This document shows, one piece after another, positions 1 to 15,092 of a DNA stretch of 36,761 bases. Source of the DNA: Hysterium pulicare CBS 123377 (lineage: Eukaryota; Ascomycota; Dothideomycetes; Hysteriales; Hysteriaceae). The stretch spans positions 1 through 36,761 of the forward strand of contig AJFK01000063.1 of assembly GCA_000467715.1 (NCBI GenBank), given 5' to 3'. Within the stretch, counting starts at the first letter, position 1. Each line of letters opens with the position of its first letter. The translations under genes were made by a program, and so were the position numbers. The notes beneath the pieces were generated by a model, which was given only the letters and a program-made list of their open reading frames with translations, had not been told where the DNA came from and ran no database searches.

Positions 1-753
1 TCTCTCTATCTCTCTAGCCTTTAGCCTTTAGCCTTCAGCCTTTTTCTTCTTCTTCTTCCTTGTTCGGACTTTAGAGGTAGTAGGTTAGGTAGCATAGTAA
101 ACTAGATAATAATAAGTTATTATAATATTAAGACTTTTTATAAACTACTAAATATAAAATCTAACTAGGTCCCCTTATTTATAATAAAATATTATAGAAC
201 CTATATAAATCTTAGTAGAAAAACTAAAAGAATTAGTGTTAATTTATGTAGATAAACTACTATAATTAATTGTACCAAAACAACCTTGATTTATCGTGAA
301 GCAAAACCTGTAGGGTGATGCGAACCCATGCAACAACAACAACTCTCTAGAACGCCACTCTGCCCCTCAGCAACCGTGTGCAAGCTACTTCAGGCGAACG
401 CTGGTCGTGGAAGACCACTGTGCCGATGCCATCGACAACAAGAACGCAGATGCACAAGCAGGACATGCAGCTGCCGGTGCAGCAGATTGAAAGGTGCTTT
501 AACGAATGAAGATACTCTACTGGACGTCACATACCAGGAAAGCTAGATGCATTCGAGTTTCATTGTGTCGTTTTGGTTCATTGGATGCTGCTACGCAGAC
601 TGATCTTAGTAAAAGTACATTCTCTGTCCATTGTCCTCATTCCTCCATCTCCGTGTATACATTTGAAGTAACACGCTATCGCCCATCATGCTCAAAGAGG
701 GGCTCACAAACTTGATCACCTATTTCGCCCAGCCCATGTTGCTGACCACCTGA
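1..753. repeat. AT-rich, RIP-like island with microsatellites and a gene remnant
   Basis: No intact gene is visible. Bases 1-60 are pyrimidine-rich, with repeated agcctt and ttc units. Bases about 70-300 are very AT-rich and full of TA, CTA and TACTA words with few CG or CA words, as expected of repeat-induced point mutation in ascomycetes. From about 300 the base composition returns to normal. A 58-codon open frame without ATG lies at 314-490 and could be the 3' end of a decayed gene. Nothing else can be supported up to the stop codon of copy A. The RIP reading is inferred from composition by eye. Confidence 0.5.
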
Positions 754-1989
754 TCAGTGATTTCTGCAGTCGTGTTCCAGGTAGATGTTCTTTCGCTCCT
801 CGTCAATGTCATGCTCGCAGTTACAGCCCGACACATCACACTCAGAGTACTCAATCTCCCGTGGGCATGAGGAGACCAACCTATGGTAATTGCCGTCGCA
901 TTCCTTCGTGTGGTTGATCGTCTAATCAACAAACAAAGTTAGAAGAATGCTTTTCATTATGACATGTTTAGCGATGGACGAAGACTTACAGTACAAATGG
1001 GCTGCAGCCCGCAACCTCCATATACGCGACAACTGTGATCTGACAGATTGCAAGGGCAGAATGATTCTAGCTTGCCTTGGGTATGATGGTGGTGCACACG
1101 CTTCGCTGGGGGTTCATCATTCATATCGTTCTGAATGTCATCATCGCCGCTGAGAGTGCCTGTGGTGATATCCTCGTTATGAGCGGTCAACGAATCGCTA
1201 GCCTCGGGTCCATCACGGTCAGAATATAGGTGTGGAACTGATCCTGAATTAACATGATTGGCACACTGAGTTGTGTAGTCTTACACATACCATCGTATCC
1301 AGCACTTCCATGTTCTTTGATGGACTGGATCTCCTCATCACTCAAAATCTTGTGCGTGCAATGCTCGAACATGAGCTCAGTCCGGCTCTTGGAGTCTTGC
1401 CTGGATTCTTCGCCCCAGAGCTCTTTGTGTCGTTGCCGAAAATGTGTCTTGAACCCGCGAATTCCCCTGAAGAACTCCAGCTGAAGGGGCGTTCGAAAGA
1501 ATGAGTTGCATCCTTGACTACACAAACTGCATCGGAGTTCGACCCACTGTTTCGTGTCCAAGTTGAGTACGACGACTGGGTGAGATTTCTCTTGGGTCGC
1601 CGTGGTCTTTGGTTTCAATTTCAGGACCTTGGGAACATGGGGCTCTCGTGAACGCTTCTGGGGGGTTGGCACAGCGGCTTCCTTAGGGTGAGAAGCACTA
1701 TATTCTTCCTAGCAAAGGCATGGACAGTTAGTTCTTAAGCACCCGGGACTTTAGTCCTCAAAACTTTACTTACCGAAAATTGTGCGAGCTTCTTGCTCAG
1801 ACGAGCAAGCGTTGGCGCGTATTGGACATTGATCTTCTCGATCTGTTGCTGCTCTTCCTTCTCTAGTTCCTTCTGGAACTCTTGTTGTCGAAGTTGTACA
1901 TTTTTCTTAGTAGCCTCGAGCGCGTTTTCTTTCTCTTTGTGCGTGGCACTGAGTTCTTCGAGCACTGATCTGAAATCCATGTTAGCCAT
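754..1989 (-). CDS. Array copy A: coiled-coil / multi-zinc-ligand protein, 351 aa
   Basis: Four exons by my reading: 1989-1774, 1708-1291, 1243-990 and 921-754, with intron phases 0, 1, 0. Exon 1 (72 residues) is a charged heptad-rich coiled coil rich in E, K and Q. Exon 2 carries WVELRCSLC, then GFKTHFRQRH, then EHCTHKIL, giving CxxC, Hx4H and CxH ligand sets. Exon 3 has an acidic linker, the basic patch PAKRV followed by four histidines, and the knuckle CPCNLSDHSCRVYGGC plus a fifth cysteine. Exon 4 ends in a CCCH-like pattern (C-x8-C-x4-C-x3-H) and the tail HDCRNH. The ATG at 1989 is the first after a promoter-like stretch; an upstream GTG is unlikely. Function is unknown. The ligand sets and basic patch suggest a nuclear nucleic-acid-binding protein, by inference only. 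Confidence 0.72.
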
Positions 1990-2481
1990 CGTGCGCCACA
2001 AAAGAGCTGTGGTAATCTAAAGGTAGACGAGAGGAAAAAGTTAGTGAGAGAAGTTGGGTGGGCGAGCCGAAGGGAAATATATTTGCCAAACGCGTCTGGC
2101 GGTCAATGCGTCAACTTCACTCTCTCGCGCGGTCAATTATCGGCGGACAGAGTCATTAGGCAGCAGGCGAAAACCTTCCTGTTTGGGCGAAGAAGAGTGA
2201 AGAGAAGTTCGGTGCGGATATGAGCATGGCGTGATAGAGTATCTTACCTTGGTTCTCAGTCTTATATCCGTAATTTGCAAGGCTAATGAGATGTTGAGAT
2301 CAATATAGCTTCACATGTGAAACGACTAGAGCCAAAGCAGCTATAAGAAAGATTGAACTCGTTTGTTTCCCTTATCCATCCTACGCCGTCCTTCACCGCC
2401 ACATACCAACTCATGAACAGCAACTTGGTGTGGCATACATACATAAAACCCGGATCAGTAATCCTTTTCCTGCGATGAGGA
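1990..2481. promoter_or_regulatory. Intergenic A-B with one ACGCGT site upstream of copy A
   Basis: About 490 bases between the start of copy A and the stop of copy B. No gene is seen. An ACGCGT word, the core of the MCB element bound by MBF-type cell-cycle regulators in fungi, lies at 2090-2095, about 100 bases upstream of copy A. A single 6-mer can occur by chance. The rest holds the 3' flank of copy B. Confidence 0.3.
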
Positions 2482-4061
2482 TCAGTGATGATCGCATATA
2501 TGAGTGAGGTTAACAATTCTCCTAGCCCCAAAGTTCTCGTGCACACAAATACATGATTCATAATCATCACAGCGACCATCCTTCAGTAAGTTATCACATG
2601 TAGACTGTAACACAGTATGATGATCAATCGTACACCCGGGTCTGCACCCAGTTGCCTAAGCTTAGTTAGTGTTGAGCCCGTAAAGTCTGGTTAAACGTGG
2701 GAGGTTTTTACATGACATATTTTCCCCTTGCTACAACCACCAGGAACGCCGCATGCCTTGTTGTGGAGGTTACAAGGGCAGAACCCTCCGAAATCTATGT
2801 CAAGCTCCTGGGTCTGAGTACGTGATTCGGATCGTTGCGTTTCGGATTGTGAAGACGAAAGTTCGGACAAAGAGATAACACTGATAGCTCGTTAGCGCTT
2901 GCGCAGCTATGCTCATTTCTTGAAGGGTGATGCTGAGCAACGGGGGCATCAGTGTTACGAACCTGGGACCTCTGACACATGTGTTCGATGCCTTTCGGGA
3001 TGGCCCATCAAGTCGTTGGCGTTTTGTATTCGGTTCGCTTGGTGTTGAAGATTCCCTTGCCCGAATTTTAACAATACGATCGCGGGTGCCCGGGGTACCG
3101 AGCTCAGGAGACGAGAAAGAGGGGGGATGCTCTAGTACCCTTATCAAGGGACCGTTAGTAGGGCCGTCAAGAGGCAATACCTTTTCGACTGTTGGGACAT
3201 CAGCTGAAGTTACATCATGAACGGCGTAAGACCAACCATGATAGTTATTTTCATTCTTGATACTCAAAGCTACGCCGGCAGACACTTCGCGGTGAAAGCA
3301 ACGCTCGATTATCCATCTAGTCGTAGCGCCTTTGGTCTTGTCCTTTGGGCGCTTCTGGAAGATGCTTCTATGGGCTTCTTGAAAGTGGAGATTGAAGCCT
3401 TGCACTCCAACCAGGAACACCTTGTGTCCGGCTCTTTCTGGATCCATACGTGCGTTACAGCCACAGTCTGGACACCTTAATTCAATATACTTTCCGGCTA
3501 GGTGGGCAGGTCGGGGTTCGGTCACTTTGACGATGAGGGAATGTTCGGTTTGATTTTCCATGAAAATGGGTGAGATGGTATTGTGCTGCTGGTCATTCGA
3601 GGTGCGTGTAGTTTGAATGGTTTGAGACTCGCTATTTGAGCCTTGCGGACCTGGCGCAGATTGGCGAGTGCGGGCTGGCCTTTGCCCCGGAGTGCTTATT
3701 TGAGGCACAAGAGTAGTACCGCCGAATGTCTCCTAAGGAATTCATGAGATGCCGAACGTGAACGTGAAATGTGGAGATTTTTAAATGTGATAAGACTTAC
3801 CCGTCTCCGCTGCTCAACTGCTTGTGTCTTTCGACGGTATTTCTCCTCAATCCGCAAGCGCTGTTGGTTTATGCCATCATCAACCTTTTGATACTCCTCT
3901 TGTGCATCTCTTTCTATTTGGGCCCGGACAAGCTCGAATGCTTTCTCCTTACTCTTCGTCACTTCGTCACGACGCCGCCGCTTCTCGAGGCTCAACTCTT
4001 TGTGCTCCGCATCTCTTGATCTGATAAGCTGATCCCATGGATCCGAGTCATTGGCAGCCAT
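2482..4061 (-). CDS. Array copy B: coiled-coil / multi-zinc-ligand protein, 441 aa
   Basis: Five exons fit all frames: 4061-3801, 3732-3237, 3188-2963, 2880-2712 and 2655-2482, with intron phases 0, 1, 2, 0. Exon 1 is an 87-residue coiled coil. Exon 2 has the module YIELRCPDC, GFNLHFQEAH and ERCFHREV. The linker has the basic patch TKRQRLD. Exon 4 carries the knuckle CPCNLHNKACGVPGGC and then KGKIC. Exon 5 has STCDNLLKDGRC followed by a C and CICVH, a canonical CCCH spacing (C-x8-C-x5-C-x3-H), ending THICDHH. Exon 5 has the same length (174 nt) as in copy E, its closest relative; both also start exon 2 with ET and share a TEHSL stretch. Intron 2 is only 48 nt and keeps the frame, so it might be retained. 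The intron 3 donor is gttcgt, as in copy E. Function unknown. Confidence 0.72.
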
Positions 4062-6015
4062 CGTTTTAGATTACACAAGAGAAAACAGAGAACAACGGCA
4101 AGGATTTTTTCAATAGAAGCTGCTCGTAGATGTGAAGCGATGTATGGAACGAAGGAAAGCAGCAGAGGGGAACGAAAAGGTGGCTATAGGAAAAAGCACG
4201 AGACAGCGTGACAGATCGGCAACGCGTGCCCCCTGCACGCGTTATCCTGAGTTGTCAGGGGAAACGGCTTTCAGGAAGGAAAAACTCAATAATACTTATG
4301 AGTACTACTTCAGGTGTATCGTTACGGGTACAGTACCTTCTCAGAGGTGCATCCGAAGAGATTATACGATCATTACCACCGGTTCGATCATCCTTAGCGT
4401 ACCAACTGTACTAGGTAGGTAAGGACTCCTTAATATGTCGAAGCATTGTACAGGTATTTTCGAGAACGTGAAAATCCAACGTCTTGGAAGTACTCCATCT
4501 AAACAGGTGTACAGGGTGCATGGTACTGATTGACTGACTGACGTTTATGCGGCGGGGAGATTAGCGCCAACTCTAATGGCTAAGTCTATTTACCTCTTAC
4601 CTAATCTACTCAATGTAATCTATATAACATTAAAGTTGAAATTGCTATCAAAGTAACTTATTTTATATAGTGTATATGATAAACTACTAATGTAATCCTT
4701 ACTACTAGACAGTTTTTATAGATGGAAACCTACTAGAGAAAAAGGGCCGAAACCTAGTAGAATGTGGAGATTGGATCATGCCTTTGCCTTGTTTGCCCCC
4801 AACTTTTATCGTTCGAATATTTCTACTTGCAAAAGCTTCAACCAATAAGAGGTCTAGTACAATTTGGCACTACGCGCTGCCCTGGAGGGGTTTCAGGCCC
4901 TAAGGGGCTAAATCTCCTCAAGTTTGAAGGATGGCTGCTTTCAAAAGTAAAGACTACTGCTAGAGTTCTTTATTATAGAAAGTAAATTTTAAAAAGTTTA
5001 TCTCTTTTCTAAAGAGTTATATTACTCTCTATATCTAAAATATTTAGATTTTCTAGGACTCTATATAGTTAATTCTACTAAGGAAAAAAAATTATAACTA
5101 GAGAGGTTTTTCTTAGAGCAAAAGATATCGATTGTAAGAACATTAATAAGTTCTAGAACAAGCTTTCAAGAAATACTAACCTAGAAATAAGCTCATCCAG
5201 ATTACATACAACTACTTGTACGCCTCTATTAGAAATCTTTCGTATCGCTTCTAGCGTTTTTATCAGCATGGATCATCGCCGGCTCACCGGCTCATACGAC
5301 CTCTTTGCTTGATTCATACTCCTCATCAGGTATCCCCTTTAGGCATATAAAGGCAGCCGAGAAGAGCTACATCCATTCAAACCAAGTAATGATTTAAGCC
5401 GAGACTTCGTTGCTCATTCCAGCCTTCACCCCCGCCCCTGCGACTAGCCCCAGGGTGCAGCATCATGCAGCAGTTGGCGGACTTTTTAATCGCGTTAACT
5501 GACTCTTCACTACTCTTACGTCTGACTGAAACACTTGCGCGGATTATGATCGCATCCTCGCGAAGAGATACTCGTAAACTCTTACCGAGGATCGACGGTG
5601 GCGGCGGGAGCAAGCCTTGGTGCCGATGTGGATACGATCTCCGTGCGATAGAACAACAAGGTCTATGTAAAGCGTAGGGTATACTCTGATCAATCGCATG
5701 GGTCCCGGATGTCTGAGCGCATGTACCTGGGACGAGTGGATTATGGACAGATTGAAGCCTTCAGGCCATCATCGACCGTAACGATCTTACAAATGTAATC
5801 AATGTTCACAGAGCAAAGGGTTATCAAGGTTGAATAGAGTGAATAGATGACATTGGACTAAGAAAAGCAAGGCACATTCTTGGTGCCCCTGATCCATGCC
5901 CTGCAATTGTCAACCTGCCAAGCGTACCGATACGAAAGTTCCTATATGGTATTGACTGACTGTTTGATATGAGATCTTTCCATCGCTACCTAGAATTGGA
6001 GACTATCCCAACCGT
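4062..6015. repeat. Long gene-free interval with an AT-rich RIP-like core
   Basis: About 1.95 kb between the start of copy B and the 3' end of copy C. The first 500 bases have normal composition and hold the promoter side of copy B, including the ACGCGT palindrome listed separately. About 4560-5240 is AT-rich and TpA-rich (tactaatg, ctactag, tatata words) and resembles the island at 70-300; this suggests a RIP-degraded transposon, but no ORF, LTR or terminal repeat could be recognised. From 5260 to 6015 composition is normal. Short open frames at 5377-5677 show no recognisable motif. The island splits the array into A-B and C-F. Confidence 0.5.
4221..4243. promoter_or_regulatory. Perfect 9-bp inverted repeat with two ACGCGT cores upstream of copy B
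   Basis: Two perfectly complementary 9-base arms (aacgcgtgc and gcacgcgtt) flank a 5-base spacer. Each arm contains ACGCGT, the MCB core recognised by fungal APSES/MBF regulators. The site is about 160-180 bases upstream of the start codon of copy B, a reasonable position for an operator. Binding is not shown; a hairpin or a chance palindrome are alternatives. Confidence 0.35.
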
Positions 6016-7446
6016 TCAATGACGTTTGCAATGCTTATTATGCTTTGCAGAGGATTGCCGTCGCCACTCCTTGTTATCATGTCCAAGGTGACATGCAACG
6101 AAACATTGTTTATCATCGAGGATGTAACGCTCACACGTAGCCAAGCGGACCTGGCATGGACCCCATCGCAGGAATCGACGTGGGAGTATTTCTAGTACGG
6201 CGAGGAGATAAGCATCTCACATGGTTGGGATAGAGTTGGGAGGAACTCACGTTGCAGGTTTTGATCTTTTGGCACCCGCCATATACTGCGCACGGGTGAT
6301 TGTTGATATTACAGGGACAGTATTTGTTCAAGTCGTGTCCTGAGGGCGGAGACAGGAGCCCCCCACCAGAGTGTTGTTGGGCAGAGTGCGGTAGGTCACG
6401 GTCACCGTTCGAGTAGGTGCTTGGGATGTACCTATGACAAATCAGTATTATCGGGTGAATTGACGTACCCATCATCGAGCTTAGGTTGATTGAATAATGA
6501 AGCAACGAACCCAAGTGAACTGCCCCAATTCTCCGTGTCTGATAGCTCCCGATCTGCCGAGGCACGTCGAACACGCTTATTAGGAGGAAGCATTGTACGC
6601 TCTGGTGACGGGGTCGGATGATAGCTCGCATCGGTTGTTTGCGAGTCAGTAGTTGGCTGGAAAGCGTTTGGATAGAGATGAGGAACTGGTTTCAAATCAG
6701 CAAGAGCAACATTGCTTATAACAACGTGCATTACCCTCATAACCATCTTTCCCTGGTTCATCGACACGCCGCATCTCGTCGGTCGTCAACACTCTATGAG
6801 TACATGCCTCAATGATGTAATCTGATCGTTCCTCCGGATCCTCGTTGCATTTCTCCCATTGAGACCTATGACAGCAGGCGAAGTGGGATTTGTATGCCTT
6901 GAGGCCATTGAAAAACGTGCCGGTTCTGGGATTCGAATTAATTTCCGGTTTACAGAGTTTGCATCGCATTTCGACATATTTTCCATCTTTTCGGCAATTT
7001 ATCGAAGGATGGTTAGTAATATAGTTGTGAACCTGTGCACCGGCTTCAAATCGTCGAGGATGTGCAGGCCGTTCGACAAGCGAGTTCTGCTGGGGTATCG
7101 GCCTCAGGGTTCTGGCAGACTCCTAGGCATCGAGGCATGCAATCAGCATCTAAATAAACGTGTCACCGAAAATCGATCGAACAATGCTTACGTTTCCACT
7201 AGATGCCTGTGACCGATCTTTTGGTAGATTTCCAAGAGTTTGAACAATTTCTCTTTCGAATGCTCGCCTTATCTCCCGGCATTTCTCGTCACGTTCACGT
7301 TCGATTCTGCTCTTTTCTTGTTCAAACTTTGTTTTAGCCCTGTTGACCTCTCTTTGGGCAGCAATGATCACAGGTCGACACCGATCTTCCCTTAGTTGCA
7401 TCAAAGAATCGATCATATCTTGAGAGATCGAGTCACTTCCTGCCAT
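6016..7446 (-). CDS. Array copy C: coiled-coil / multi-zinc-ligand protein, about 391 aa, last exon uncertain
   Basis: Exons 7446-7192, 7122-6735, 6685-6469 and 6431-6251 with phases 0, 1, 2, 0, then a last exon ending at 6016. Exon 1 is an 85-residue coiled coil. Exon 2 has YVEMRCKLC, YKSHFACCH and EACTHRVL. The linker has VPHLYP and NKRVRRA. The knuckle is CPCNINNHPCAVYGGC, then KTC. The expected acceptor (exon from 6191) reads a sequence like the start of the A and F tails but loses the zinc-finger frame. An acceptor at 6150/6151 restores it, giving C-x9-C-x3-C-x3-HDN and the ending NKHCKRH. Either splicing has shifted or a one-base loss has occurred. Intron 3 is unusually short (37 nt). 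Confidence 0.65.
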
Positions 7447-8118
7447 GTCGAGATCAACGGGGCAGCTTGTATGCTTCGAAAGTATCAGCGATAGAGTTGA
7501 AAACAGAGTGAAAGTGCAATTGACAGGTATCGAAGGCAGCTCGAGTGCTCAGGTGTTGAGATGAAGCGAGGAGAAAGAGGGGGCGGACAAGTAGCCACTT
7601 ATTCGCCAAGGTATCTCGACAACGATGCAGAAGTTGAGCTGTCACATTTCAGCAAACCGCAACCCGCGCCACTAGTGATACATGAATTAGGCAGACATAT
7701 TTCTGCTGTAGCGAAATCACTAAGAACGTCTTAATGAAAGCCTCTTGCAGCAAAATGCAGGGAAAATGTTAGGCTAGATATGAATTGAGCAAGAAAGAAA
7801 GAGTCACTTGGCGACTGGAAAGCAATCCACGTCACAGTATAGAGAGTTGCTAGGGGAATGAGGACACTGCAGAAGATAGCTCTCAAGGTTCATCCGTCAT
7901 GAGAAATCATCCCGTCTCCCCGAATAATGCCTGTAAATAGCGAAATTCTGATACAACAAAATTACTGTATAACTTGGAATGCCGGAATTTTCTATCCAGT
8001 TGAGTACGCGTACGGACTTTAAACAACCTTGTAGAGTAACATTGACTGATGAGTCCTAAAGACTAAGGGTTTTGAATATCAGCATATATGCCTTTAGACT
8101 CACAAGCATGAGAAGCAC
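7447..8118. other. Intergenic C-D; start of a duplicated flank
   Basis: No gene is supported here. The stretch about 7545-7800 aligns by eye with about 11880-12130 upstream of copy E. Shared words in the same order include cgccaag, gatgcagaagttgagc, tcacatttca, aggcaga and gcagcaaaatg. An open frame at 7454-7645 (minus) has no recognisable motif and is not conserved in the duplicate. An ACGCGT word occurs at 8006-8011, too far from copy C to assign. Confidence 0.5.
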
Positions 8119-9262
8119 TTACCGCGTATGTCGGCTCTGGTCGAGATACTCGATTATGTCTTTTGTATGTGGTCCATGAGCTCTGCAATAGCTTCCTCCG
8201 TGAGGATAGTTCCCGCAATCAATGCGGGAAGTTGTTGGCGTTGAGATCGTCGGCCGGCTGAAAGATCGATTGGATTTGTAGCGCCGCTAAAGTCATGTCA
8301 GATCATAAGCAAGCCATTACGGTTTAATAAACCACCGAGTAAGCTCAAGCAATTACCTTGTCGTAGTATTGTTACGTTCGGTATTGTGGGTCCCTGGGCC
8401 AAAACGTCGTGCGCGTTTCGACGGAGGGACGGACAATGGTTCTGGAGAACAATGAATCGAGTTTCCTTCCTCGACTTCCTCGTCCGCATACTCCTCATCG
8501 TCCTCAATGAGCACTAGATCCTGGCCTCCCACTTCTTTACGTTCGCTGGGAATGAGGTATGGTACTGGCCGAGAATTAGCAAAGAGCGTGTGTAGGTGAT
8601 TGTGCATATCATCACCTTCATAGCTTTCCGGGCCTTCTTCCTCAATTCGCCGCACCTCCTCTGCGGTCAACTCTCTATGAACGCATTGACTGAACATGAA
8701 CTCCGTTCGACTCTTCTTATCTGCCTTTATGTTGTTCCAGACCTCCTCGTGGCTGCGCATGAAATGTACTCTGAGTCCATGGAGACCGTTAAAGTATTTC
8801 GGCATCCCATTATGGATCCTAGCATTACTCTCCGGACGGCATATCTTGCACCTCAACTCTACCCATTTACCTTGGCCATTCCGTTCGACAAGCGGATGAG
8901 ACGACTTGTCCTTGGGGTTGTTTTTGGTCGGTGTCGGGATGGTTTGGCGTCTCTTCGGCGGGTTGGAGGCTTGAGCTTTGGGCGTAGTGCGAGGTGTTGA
9001 TAGCTCAATGCAATCAAGCAAGACTGGAAATGTATTGTCATCTCGTGCTCCCTAAAGAATGGTCGAAAGTTAACTTGTGATTCAAGATGCCTAAAGGAAT
9101 AGAATCGGGACCCACGCCATTGACCACTCGTCTTAGTTCCAGAGAGAACCAACTCTCAACCTCTTCATGTTGTTTATCGATCTCTTCATGGCGGCGAGTC
9201 CGCTCCGCTTTCAGACTCTCGATGCGTTTGAGCGTTGACTCGACTCCATTGGAGCCCTCCAT
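8119..9262 (-). CDS. Array copy D: short, diverged member without the knuckle, about 309 aa
   Basis: Exons by my reading: 9262-9116, 9051-8616, 8564-8357 and 8257-8119, phases 0, 1, 2. Exon 1 is a short (49-residue) coiled coil. Exon 2 has the clearest family module: WVELRCKICRPESNARI, then LHGLRVHFMRSH, then QCVHRELTAEEVRRIEEEG. The linker has VPYLIPSE, an acidic run and SKRARRFG. The knuckle and the CCCH tail are missing; the last exon instead holds RIDCGNYPHGGSYCRAHG, a different small C/H cluster. An alternative acceptor near 8287/8288 gives another frame, ending at 8154, with a helical cysteine-free tail. The intron 1 donor is gtgggt. Either D has lost the 3' module or an unrelated end has been captured. 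Confidence 0.65.
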
Positions 9263-10162
9263 ACTGCCAGCGACAAGAGGTGGAGATGGATCCGAGGGTT
9301 TGATAGAGGTTTATGTGTGTAGCGTAAGGCGACGAAGCTTTTGACGCCACAAGCTTGTTTTCCGCTGGTGGCATCACGTGATTCGTTCAAGTCTTGCTTG
9401 TTCTCACCCACAACGATTTGGAGACTCTCAACTGATGTAGTATATCCAAGCTTTCGTGCTCAGAAATGTTGGAGTAACTCCTGCGTGCTTTGCTGGATGT
9501 TTTAAGACTTTTGTGGATATTGAACTGTCTTGAAAGACTGGGCGAGGATATGCCCTGTGTTTGGCATAGGGACTTTTTCTATCTCCAAAAAGAAGCAGTA
9601 GAGATAGTAAGAGATGTAGAACTTATATTACGTCCTGAACGTGTGCTGGTCCACTATGTGAAAGCTGACGACCGTCCACAGTCCTACGCCAGATAATCAC
9701 ATCGCGACTCACTACGCTGCTACAATCATCCCTTAACGTAAGGAAATGCCAACTTGAGAACGCAAACAATAATAAAAAATATCAATTCAACGTCCGACCC
9801 GTTCTTACTAGAATATGTAGACTACCTAGGTATTGACTAGTTACCCCGCACTAAAACCACCTACTAGCTAGTATTAGTTAAACCAATAACTTTAAAGTCC
9901 ATAGGTATTGTATCCTATAGCTAAAGCTGCACCTCCAGCCCTTTAAAGAGGCCCTCCAACCTTCCAAGCTAGGACCCAGAAGCCACCCAGGAAAATGCAG
10001 ATCCCTCTTGGGGGTAGGTGCGGGAATCGAACCCACTGACTACACCACCCACCAACCCAATAATAAAAATTCCAAGTCGATGATCATTCCCTAACAAACG
10101 GCCGTGCCATCAAGATCGCCTTTTTTAACACTGACTTGCGGTATGAGCACTGGCTCGGACGA
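9263..10162. repeat. Gene-free interval with AT-rich island and tRNA-like fragment
   Basis: About 900 bases between the start of copy D and the stop of copy E. From about 9490 the sequence turns AT-rich, with ctag, tagta and aataata words, until about 10110. A 69-codon open frame at 9490-9696 has no motif and looks like degraded repeat. On the minus strand near 10018-10034 the sequence reads gggttcgattcccgc, which matches a tRNA B box and T-arm. No complete 72-base cloverleaf could be folded around it. It may be a tRNA-derived repeat or a degraded SINE. Confidence 0.4.
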
Positions 10163-11745
10163 TCAATGATACCTGCACGAATGGTTGCGGTGCAGCTCCT
10201 TTCGAGCTTCGAGATTATCATGCACTAACTTGCAAGATGAACCATCGCCGCAGTAGCCTTCGAGGAGCTCGTTGTCGCACGTGGATTGGAATTTGTCGTG
10301 GAACTTGACAATACAGCCGGGCTTGTGGCCCATACCCTTTGGGAAGTCAGAACCAATATCAAACAAACTCAATAGGATTCAAAAAATCGTACATGGCAAA
10401 TTTTCTCCTTCTTGCATCCCCCAACCATACCACAGGGATGGTTCGATAGATTACACTGGCAATACTTGTCGAAATCCTCTTCGGGAATGTCTGCAGGCTC
10501 AGGTGTAGGCATGTATGCTACCGACTGTTGAGACTCTGGTTGGGAACGAAGATCAATCCCCGAGCTGGGGAAACTGGGAGACTGATCGTTAGTAAGCTGT
10601 TGAGTGATGGTCTTATTCTTATATATACATTTGGACGAACCTAGGAGTTGGGCCGTAGTCCTGAGAAGAAGCATCAACACGTCGGCGTTTGGGCTGCGGA
10701 CTACTCGGAATAACAGAATCATAAGACGAGTGTGGCACAAAGTCACTGTCATTGTCTCTTCCCGTGGTACTGCCAGTGCTTTGGACTAAGATGAGAGGTC
10801 CAGCCAAGGGACCAGAAGAAGATGACTCAGGATCGCTTCGGGCGCAGTCTTTGGGAGATAATAGCATTTCAACTGGAGTATTGTCAGAAGGCAACATCTG
10901 AAAGATCGGGTACTCCTACCAGGATAGTCTTTCGCTCCCTTCAAGACCTGATATGAGCAACGATCGATTATCCATCGGTGTGTAGTCCCTCTCTCGTTGA
11001 TTCCAGGTCGCCTATCCAAGATCTGTGAGTGACACGCTTTATAGTGCATCCTGAAACCCTCCACGCCACTCAAGAATATCTTAGGCCTAGGTTTCGACCC
11101 CAACTCTAAGCGGGCATTACAGCCCAGTGGATACTCAGTGCATACGCAGTCTTTGCACCTCAATTCCACCAATGTATTGTCCAGTTTTATGACCAGCGAA
11201 TGCTCCGTCTTTTCTACGGAAGAATAAGAGATTGGAGTATTGCATCGCCAAGTCCGTATACGGTACGTGTCGGCGGGCTCAACCTGGATGTTCCGTGGTT
11301 TTTGGAGGGTAAAGTCTCGAGGACAGAGTTCGGAATGACGGCTACGAAGTGGTACTAGGGCCGATGTATGGTTGCTAAGAGTCTCCTAGGAAAACACGTC
11401 ACCTGTTAGCCTGGGAGCGTATAGACCGGACGGGAGAATGGTTCAGCAAAAACTTACCCGCCTCTTATCCTCAGCATCAGCCCTTGCAAGACTCTCTTTC
11501 GCTGCATCTATGTCATTGTTGATCCCCTCGAGACTCATACAGATTGACTGAGCATTCGTAGCAACCGCTTCATGCTTTGACTGAGCTTCAGCGTCAACAG
11601 CTTCATGTTTCTTCCTCTTGCTTTTCTCAATCTCAACATGCTCTTGCTGTATTCCTTGCAACTCATCTTCTTCATCCACTCTTCTCCTGTACAATTCCGC
11701 AAGGCGAGTGTGGTGGTTTATAAGCACTGAATCATCGCGTGCCAT
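10163..11745 (-). CDS. Array copy E: coiled-coil / multi-zinc-ligand protein, 446 aa
   Basis: Five exons: 11745-11458, 11385-10920, 10872-10641, 10573-10393 and 10336-10163, phases 0, 1, 2, 0. Exon 1 (96 residues) is a coiled coil with HEAVDAEAQSKHEAV, a short internal repeat. Exon 2 begins ETL, has TEHSL as in copy B, and then LVELRCKDC, GFRMHYKACH and DRCSYQVL; the histidine of the final CxH is replaced by tyrosine. The linker carries PKRRRVD. Exon 4 has the knuckle CQCNLSNHPCGMVGGC, then EKIC. Exon 5 has STCDNELLEGYCGDGSSC and KLVHDN, a canonical C-x8-C-x5-C-x3-H zinc-finger spacing, ending NHSCRYH. It is the best-preserved pair partner of copy B. Function unknown; nuclear RNA or DNA binding is an inference. 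Confidence 0.74.
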
Positions 11746-12601
11746 AGTGATTTAGATTGGATATCGGGTAATCGATAGGCTCAAGAGAATTGTGGGTAAA
11801 GAAAAGTGTCGAGACTATGCGGCCAAGGCAATTTTCAAAGGCTTTAAAGAATTAAGCATGGAATTTGTACTAAGGGAAGGAGAAAGAGACGAGGGACGGG
11901 CGAGAACCCCGTTATACGCCAAGAGATCCAACCTTGATGCAGAAGTTGAGCCATCACATTTCAACCAACCACTTCAACGAGCGCCAGTCGTTACACAAGG
12001 AATAGGCAGAAACATTGTCTCTGCAAATTGAAACAAAGGAAACAAACCAGCATTAGTGGCTTGCAGCAAAATGTAAGGGAAATGCGAGACGGCATGAAAA
12101 ATGACAGGGAAAGAAAGATTCACTTGAGAAGATGTACGGCCGAAAAGCAAGCCAAAACACGGCTCGGAACGTTGCTTGAGAGACGAGAGCGCTGTAGAAG
12201 ACAAATCGGTGACCTCTACGTTCTGGAACGATCGCCGTCCCGCGATTTCATTCATTGAACCCGTCTTTCTCGGATAACGCCCGCAAGTTGGGAGACCGAT
12301 CTGGTAATAGTGCCGATGAGTATGCCATGCAATTAGAATTATCGAGATAGACCTGATCTAGCAGATTGGACATTGACCGAATTCTCTGGATCAGTTCAGC
12401 ATATATGCATGCAACTTGCCGACATATGAACACTACAATCCGCCCTTATCTGAATGACCGCTCGTTAGTCCCAAAATCCTACTCTGACTCTGACCCATTC
12501 TCTCAGATCAACATTTATAGAGGTACAAGCATACAGAGAAGGCTTTACCGAAGACGCCGTGTCAAAGGCTCCGTACGAGACATGTCATTCCTGTACACAT
12601 C
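11746..12601. other. Intergenic E-F; second copy of the duplicated flank
   Basis: No conserved gene. About 11880-12130 matches the flank of copy C (about 7545-7800) in word order and spacing, and both intergenic regions carry a cagcatatatgc word shortly before the 3' end of the next copy (about 8080-8092 and 12399-12410). Open frames here (for example 11792-12031 plus and 12366-12605 plus) are not conserved between the two flanks, so I do not call them genes. Confidence 0.5.
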
Positions 12602-13962
12602 TTAATGTGTCTTACAGTTGTGCTGTCCCCAAATTCGATACCGAATCATGCCATTATCGTGAGCAAATCGACAATTGTAGATGCGACACAATGAGGCGAG
12701 CTCATCGTCACGGAGAAGAGCGCCCTGATGGTTGCCCGCAGAGATTAGCATGACGGAGCAGGAAGATTCCAGTGGATGCAGCTGATTGTTGCAGACTTCG
12801 GTGTGCTTGTTTTCCTGTGAAATCGATGTCAGTATACTATACAGCCTCGACGTCGAACTGGATTCTTTGCCTGAGCACTTACGTTGCAGAGTTTCTTGAG
12901 GTTGCAGCCTCCCGGTACTTGGCACGGATGATTGGCTAGGATGCAGGGGCAAAAGGACCTGAGGTACTCTTCCGAGTCTTCAGCAGACAGGTCTTCAGTG
13001 GACAAATCTTCAGCTGACAGTTCTTCAGCGGATAGGTCTTCAGCAAACCAAGCGCTATCAGTTTGTCTTGGGGAGCGGTGTGAGCTATGGCGTCGTGCAC
13101 GTTTCGCCGTTGGTGTCGTATCTGACAGCGTTGAAGGCGTGCAATCCGAGTCCGCGAGCTCAACCAAGCGTTTAGATTTACGTATAGGCTCGCGAGGTTC
13201 ATCGGCTGTGAACTTAGACCCCTTATGAAGAAGGTAGGGAACTAAAGCAAGAGTTGGTCAACCCTACAAGCCCAGAGCTTACGAGTTTGATACCTACTTT
13301 CACGGCTTTCATGACCATATTGCTCAATTCGCTCAAGATCTTGGCTACTGAGCACCCGGTGGGTGCATGTATGGATGATAGTCTCTGTCCTACAGTCGTG
13401 TCCATGGTGCGCGCGGACGAAATGCTTTCTGAAGCCGCTAATTCCTTTGAAGAAATGAGGTCCAAATTTTATCTGGTTGCGGTAGGCATTGGTTTCCGGG
13501 TTGCAAATCTTGCAGCGAAGCTCGACCCATCTTCCGTCTGGGATTTGAATGATAGTGGAAAAAATGGGGTGAGCTTGAAAGGGAATGATATCTTTCGAGT
13601 CGGCTTCCTGAACGTCTCTCATTGGTGATCCAGGGTGTATCCGAGCCCATCATCCCTCGTTCTGCCATCTTTTCATTGCCTCCATGAAGCACCATCGCCG
13701 TCTCCGTTTCATGGCTCACTCCAATCAGGCTCTCGAGCTTCGGATTAAACTCCTTATCAAATTCGGCCAAATGCCGCTTCTCCTCTTCCTGTAGCGCTTT
13801 GAGATCCTGCTGGAACCTCTCATCAACATGCTTATGAGCTACATTGGCTTGTTCATGGGTGGTTCGGCGCCGTTCTTCGAATGCTGTAGATATGACGTTG
13901 AGCTTTCGTGCTCGGTCGTCGAAGAGGTCTTTAATCTTTTGGACGTTTGGGTGTTCTGCCAT
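12602..13962 (-). CDS. Array copy F: coiled-coil / multi-zinc-ligand protein with acidic repeats, 374 aa
   Basis: Four exons: 13962-13720, 13607-13298, 13241-12883 and 12814-12602, phases 0, 1, 0 as in copy A. The ATG at 13962 (MAEHPNVQK) is preferred to an in-frame upstream ATG because paralogues start close to the coiled coil. Exon 2 has WVELRCKICNPETNAY, GFRKHFVRAH and HTCTHRVLS. Exon 3 has VPYLLHKGS, the basic patch AKRARRHS, five acidic LSAED-like repeats and the knuckle CPCILANHPCQVPGGC. The last exon begins KHTEVCNNQLHPLESSC, then has an insertion that separates the first zinc-finger cysteine, then LCRIYNCRFAHDN and the ending QHNCKTH. The C-x8-C spacing is therefore broken while the C-x4-C-x3-H part remains. 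Confidence 0.72.
12976..13050. repeat. Five 15-bp tandem repeats inside copy F
   Basis: Five imperfect 15-base units in register (starts 12976, 12991, 13006, 13021 and 13036), each built on tcttcag. On the coding strand they encode the pentapeptide LSAED and variants (LSAEE, LSTED). They lie in the linker between the zinc-ligand module and the cysteine knuckle of copy F and are absent from the other copies. Unit number may vary between strains, as is usual for in-frame minisatellites. Confidence 0.85.
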
Positions 13963-14324: not shown

Positions 14325-15092
14325 TCATGCGCCACCGATTTCAGTGATAACCTGCTTCAAGTTCTGGATGTTGTGCGCATATCGTCCCAAGAAAAGGCCA
14401 TCAACGCCGTCCGCTATCTTGGCAAAAGTGCCTGGACCAGCACTTCCCCCATACACTATTCTCGTGATTCCCTTTCTGTTTCCAGCTATTTTTCTAAGCT
14501 CCCTTGTTACATTTACTACGTGGTCTGGATCAGCAGGCTCAGTGGCACCAATTGCCCAGACCGGCTCGTATGCGAGGATGACTTCACTGTCGTCCGGTAC
14601 CGCCGCTAGCACCGATGTAACCTGTGGCCGGCATTCTTCAATTGCCATACCAACAGCAGCTGAAGCAATGCTGTGGTGTGTTCGCTCCCCAATGCAGACG
14701 AGCGGTATTAGACCGTTCCGAGCTGCCGCCGCCGCCTTCTGCGCCACTTGTTCGTCTGTCTCCCCAAATATCGCTCTTCGTTCGGCATGCCCTATCTCTA
14801 CAATCTTGACGCCAGCCTGTTGTAATACACGCGGTGAGACCTCTCCCGTATAAGCACCGTTGTCCTTCCAGAAAGTATCTTGGGCGCCGAGCATAATGTG
14901 GGAGGACTGGAGTATCCGCGCCGACTCCATGATGGTAATGAAGTCCGGTATAACGAAGAGATCGACGCGTTCGTTCCATGCCAGACCATCGAGCTGGTAG
15001 ACTCCTTGGACGTATTTGATGGAGTCTTGAAGATCGAAGTACATTTTCAAGCTCACGCCGACGATGCGGCGGGGTCGGGGGATTGGAGGCAT
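14325..15092 (-). CDS. Triosephosphate-isomerase-family sugar-phosphate isomerase, 255 aa
   Basis: A single-exon TIM-barrel protein of typical family length. Catalytic residues can be placed: Lys16 in VGVSLKMYF, His102 in EIGHAERR and Glu176 in ILAYEPVWAIG. YGGSAGPG (214-221) matches the phosphate-binding loop. Two features separate it from glycolytic enzymes: the usual N-x-K motif is S-L-K, so the substrate-contacting Asn is replaced, and loop 6 reads AIGATEPADPDH instead of the GTGKTATPE type. Known relatives with such changes act on erythrulose phosphates in bacterial tetritol catabolism (LerI/EryH type). I infer a paralogue with a related sugar-phosphate substrate, not the housekeeping triosephosphate isomerase. 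It is divergent from MET13 across an 831-base interval. Confidence 0.85.
   Translation of the reverse strand: MPPIPRPRRIVGVSLKMYFDLQDSIKYVQGVYQLDGLAWNERVDLFVIPDFITIMESARILQSSHIMLGAQDTFWKDNGAYTGEVSPRVLQQAGVKIVEIGHAERRAIFGETDEQVAQKAAAAARNGLIPLVCIGERTHHSIASAAVGMAIEECRPQVTSVLAAVPDDSEVILAYEPVWAIGATEPADPDHVVNVTRELRKIAGNRKGITRIVYGGSAGPGTFAKIADGVDGLFLGRYAHNIQNLKQVITEIGGA

Follow-up and report, generated by a model that had tools for sequence, protein, structure and literature searches.

Array layout and gene models

We analysed one whole contig (C52; 36,761 bases, hereafter the window) of the Hysterium pulicare CBS 123377 genome, which comprises 37.2 Mb in 596 contigs, and found that it carries a tandem array of six paralogous genes (A-F, window 13962-754, minus strand) for proteins with several putative zinc-ligand motifs. 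Gene models were built by splicing the exons by hand from the sequence; all six are open and yield proteins of 309-446 amino acids, and the intron phases 0/1/(2)/0 are common to them. This confirms two proposals of a first-pass annotation of this DNA, namely six paralogues on one strand and shared intron positions and phases (0, 1, optional 2, 0). The genes are listed below, with the entries for A, B, C, E and F based on splicing and intron phases.

754-1989 (-): gene A, 4 exons (1989-1774, 1708-1291, 1243-990, 921-754), 351 amino acids, full architecture
2482-4061 (-): gene B, 5 exons (4061-3801, 3732-3237, 3188-2963, 2880-2712, 2655-2482), 441 amino acids, full architecture
6016-7446 (-): gene C, 5 exons (7446-7192, 7122-6735, 6685-6511, 6431-6251, 6150-6016), 377 amino acids in the model used
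8119-9262 (-): gene D
10163-11745 (-): gene E, 5 exons (11745-11458, 11385-10920, 10872-10641, 10573-10393, 10336-10163), 446 amino acids, full architecture
12602-13962 (-): gene F, 4 exons (13962-13720, 13607-13298, 13241-12883, 12814-12602), 374 amino acids, full architecture with a longer tail insert

The annotation had also assigned one common architecture to all six copies (coiled coil, CxxC...H...H...CxH module, VPxL linker, KRxRR-like patch, cysteine knuckle and CCCH-like tail). The full architecture is seen in A, B, E and F and likewise in G, a seventh copy that lies elsewhere in the genome, on a different contig, and matches the intron plan; C has only a partial tail, and D lacks both the knuckle and an intact tail. 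In the model used for C, splicing to a later acceptor (100-base intron) makes the tail start late and removes its first Cys/His pair; the other option is a broken frame. As the contig ends only 754 bases past the array (window 1-754), the copy number given here is a lower bound, and further copies may lie beyond.

Cysteine knuckle and CCCH-type tail

The knuckle and tail exons were located as follows:

990-1070 (-): knuckle of A, CxC-x6-C-x3-GGC-x5-C
2709-2804 (-): knuckle of B
6251-6331 (-): knuckle of C
10390-10479 (-): knuckle of E
12880-12963 (-): knuckle of F
754-921 (-): CCCH-type tail exon of A, ending in HxCxxH-stop
2482-2655 (-): CCCH-type tail exon of B, C-x8-C-x5-C-x3-H
6016-6150 (-): tail exon of C, partial
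10163-10336 (-): CCCH-type tail exon of E, C-x8-C-x5-C-x3-H
12602-12814 (-): CCCH-type tail exon of F

Exact C-x8-C-x5-C-x3-H spacing is present in two of the six window genes (B and E); A has x8/x4/x3 and C x9/x3/x3, in F and G what remains is C-x4-C-x3-H, the first gap being longer, and D has none of these. A profile of six tails gave four matches in the PDB, all of them CCCH-type (E 0.096-1.9, none significant alone). Since this profile matches only CCCH-type sequences, while the reversed-profile control returned a single, unrelated chain, the tail is, as judged from sequence, most likely a divergent CCCH finger. With a four-row tail profile three of five matches were CCCH-type, Roquin-1 among them; a knuckle-plus-tail profile found no CCCH-type match in the PDB, and no Pfam CCCH model was matched by A-G or by the knuckle-tail pieces. 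Pfam negatives, here and below, refer to matches listed at E <= 10 by a program that discards most weak ones. The CCCH-like tail of the earlier annotation is thus a likely reading, to which the spacing in B and E and the PDB matches of the tail profile point, but not for D, and only in part for C.

The likeness to CCCH (C3H1) proteins such as ZC3H7A, Nab2 and Roquin consists of these tail-profile matches (Roquin-1 with the four-row profile) and the exact spacing in B and E. Unlike these proteins, the array tails add upstream C-x4-H and terminal HxCxxH ligands, follow a CxC..GGC knuckle and have no Pfam CCCH match. HxCxxH forms the exact C-terminal end, with the stop codon next to it, in A, B, E, F and G. 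A decayed piece of an A-like knuckle exon lies on contig C375 (9719-9784; 82% DNA identity over 66 bases), where the protein likeness stops after CPCNL.

N-terminal segment and linker

The N-terminal exon contains 33-49% charged residues and few Pro and Gly; nevertheless, the proposed coiled coil was not supported, as the 3.5-residue periodicity of this segment did not exceed that of shuffled sequences in any of the seven proteins (p 0.066-0.528). CxH, claimed for every copy, reads CSY in E, VVY in G and CTF in the C505 relative, and the VPxL linker keeps its exact form in A, C and D, whereas F has IPYL and both B and E have GPLI. A basic patch, in line with the KRxRR-like patch noted earlier, is present in A-G. 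A-F contain neither a membrane-like segment nor a hydrophobic N-terminal segment.

Divergence and upstream DNA

Identity between the copies is about 22-44%, varying with the part compared, in agreement with the strong divergence noted earlier. B and E are sisters, both in the protein tree and by BLASTP. The upstream DNA of E, however, resembles that of C (73% over 140 columns, E 4.3e-17):

7569-7701 (-): upstream stretch of C matching that of E
11878-12016 (-): upstream stretch of E matching that of C

This comparison, run against a database of the six upstream stretches (600 bases each, 360 for F), gave no match at E <= 1 for any further pair. The C/E likeness may be a trace of promoter co-duplication, of gene conversion or of kept regulatory sites.

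Comparison with known families

No Pfam family reached its cut-off for the array proteins, which fits the earlier remark that no named family was known to combine these features, although the tail does point to CCCH fingers. DUF7892 (PF25422) scored 13.9 bits (D), 13.8 bits (C505 relative) and 11.4 bits (a piece of G), all below the curated cut-off of 27 bits, and a true DUF7892 gene lies separately in the same genome (contig C39, E 5e-50); from sequence, a very remote link of the array family to DUF7892 may exist. The short-finger definition of the classical C2H2 finger (C-x2-4-C-x12-H-x3-5-H) does not fit the array proteins. The CxC motif of the knuckle resembles the CxC cysteine clusters of KDZ transposases; unlike the latter, A-G have no CxC Pfam model and no KDZ transposase domain among the matches listed at E <= 10. 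PMC9742485 describes a fungal regulator, FoDbp40, with a CCCH finger, predicted nuclear signals and a reported nuclear location, and gives it as strongly conserved, at about 60-81% identity to homologues of other genera. By description, the array family would resemble it as a fungal family with a probable CCCH finger and a probable place in the nucleus, and is unlike it in the strong conservation of FoDbp40.

Genomic neighbourhood

Neighbouring genes in the window encode triosephosphate isomerase, MTHFR, an HD-domain protein, HAUS6, ECM11 and an ABC transporter; the triosephosphate-isomerase gene adjoins the array as a single uninterrupted frame (14328-15092). This set of neighbours is in keeping with a fungal genome. 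A search for 5.8S rRNA gave no result. The suggested islands of repeat-induced point mutation (RIP) beside the array were not recovered: none of 73 windows combined a product index >= 1.1, a substrate index <= 0.9 and a positive composite index. Positions 4001-5500 have a positive composite index and a product index of 1.22-1.27, but a substrate index of 0.95-1.00; when 4350-5550 served as a DNA query, its sole match was to itself. Three contigs of the genome hold four matches to the DNA-methylase family. Of 226 HET-domain candidates, 150 matches were scored, all above the cut-off, as is typical for filamentous ascomycetes (Pezizomycotina).

Possible function

Sequence features would place A-G in the cell interior and the nucleus; A-F are probably intracellular and nuclear because they lack a hydrophobic N-terminal or membrane-like segment and, like G, carry the basic patch. 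CCCH fingers bind mostly RNA. PMC9742485 states the same for most of them and also describes a CCCH protein of a fungus that is reported to act at a promoter. On these two grounds the array proteins would bind nuclear RNA in the first place, DNA in the second and protein in the third. We see an even chance that the array encodes regulators that work inside the cell, probably in the nucleus, bind RNA or DNA and arose by old tandem duplication.

That the proteins are specifically DNA binders is possible but doubtful, as the Pfam matches listed for A-G include no DNA-binding finger and the tail profile points to a finger type known to bind mostly RNA. The many oddly spaced Cys/His ligands of knuckle and tail, together with the charged N-terminal segment, would also suit protein-protein or ubiquitin-type (RING-/MYND-like) modules in place of nucleic-acid binders; we regard this as unlikely, given that the Pfam listing for five knuckle-tail pieces contains nothing of the RING, MYND or a related type (most weak matches being dropped) and that the PDB matches of the six-tail profile are exclusively CCCH-type. 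Still less probable is that the family belongs to a system of conflict in fungi, be it allorecognition, genome defence or the recognition of viral RNA, and that this drives its divergence: the tandem array, the strong divergence, the incomplete copies and the HET-rich genome would agree with it, but none of the 150 HET matches is tied to the array and the Pfam search revealed no domain linked to death or defence. Transposon genes that were domesticated or are decaying, to which the decayed knuckle piece on C375 and the incomplete C and D might point, are already disfavoured and highly improbable in view of 3-4 shared introns, no catalytic domain in the Pfam search and a DNA search with 754-1954 (the sole stretch searched) that returned only itself and the C375 fragment, without near-identical dispersed copies.

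Taken together, the array is real, old and partly incomplete, and its putative multi-zinc proteins form a fungal family that has no counterpart in the libraries searched. Judged from its sequence, this family looks more like a variant form of regulators with CCCH fingers than like a system of a new kind.
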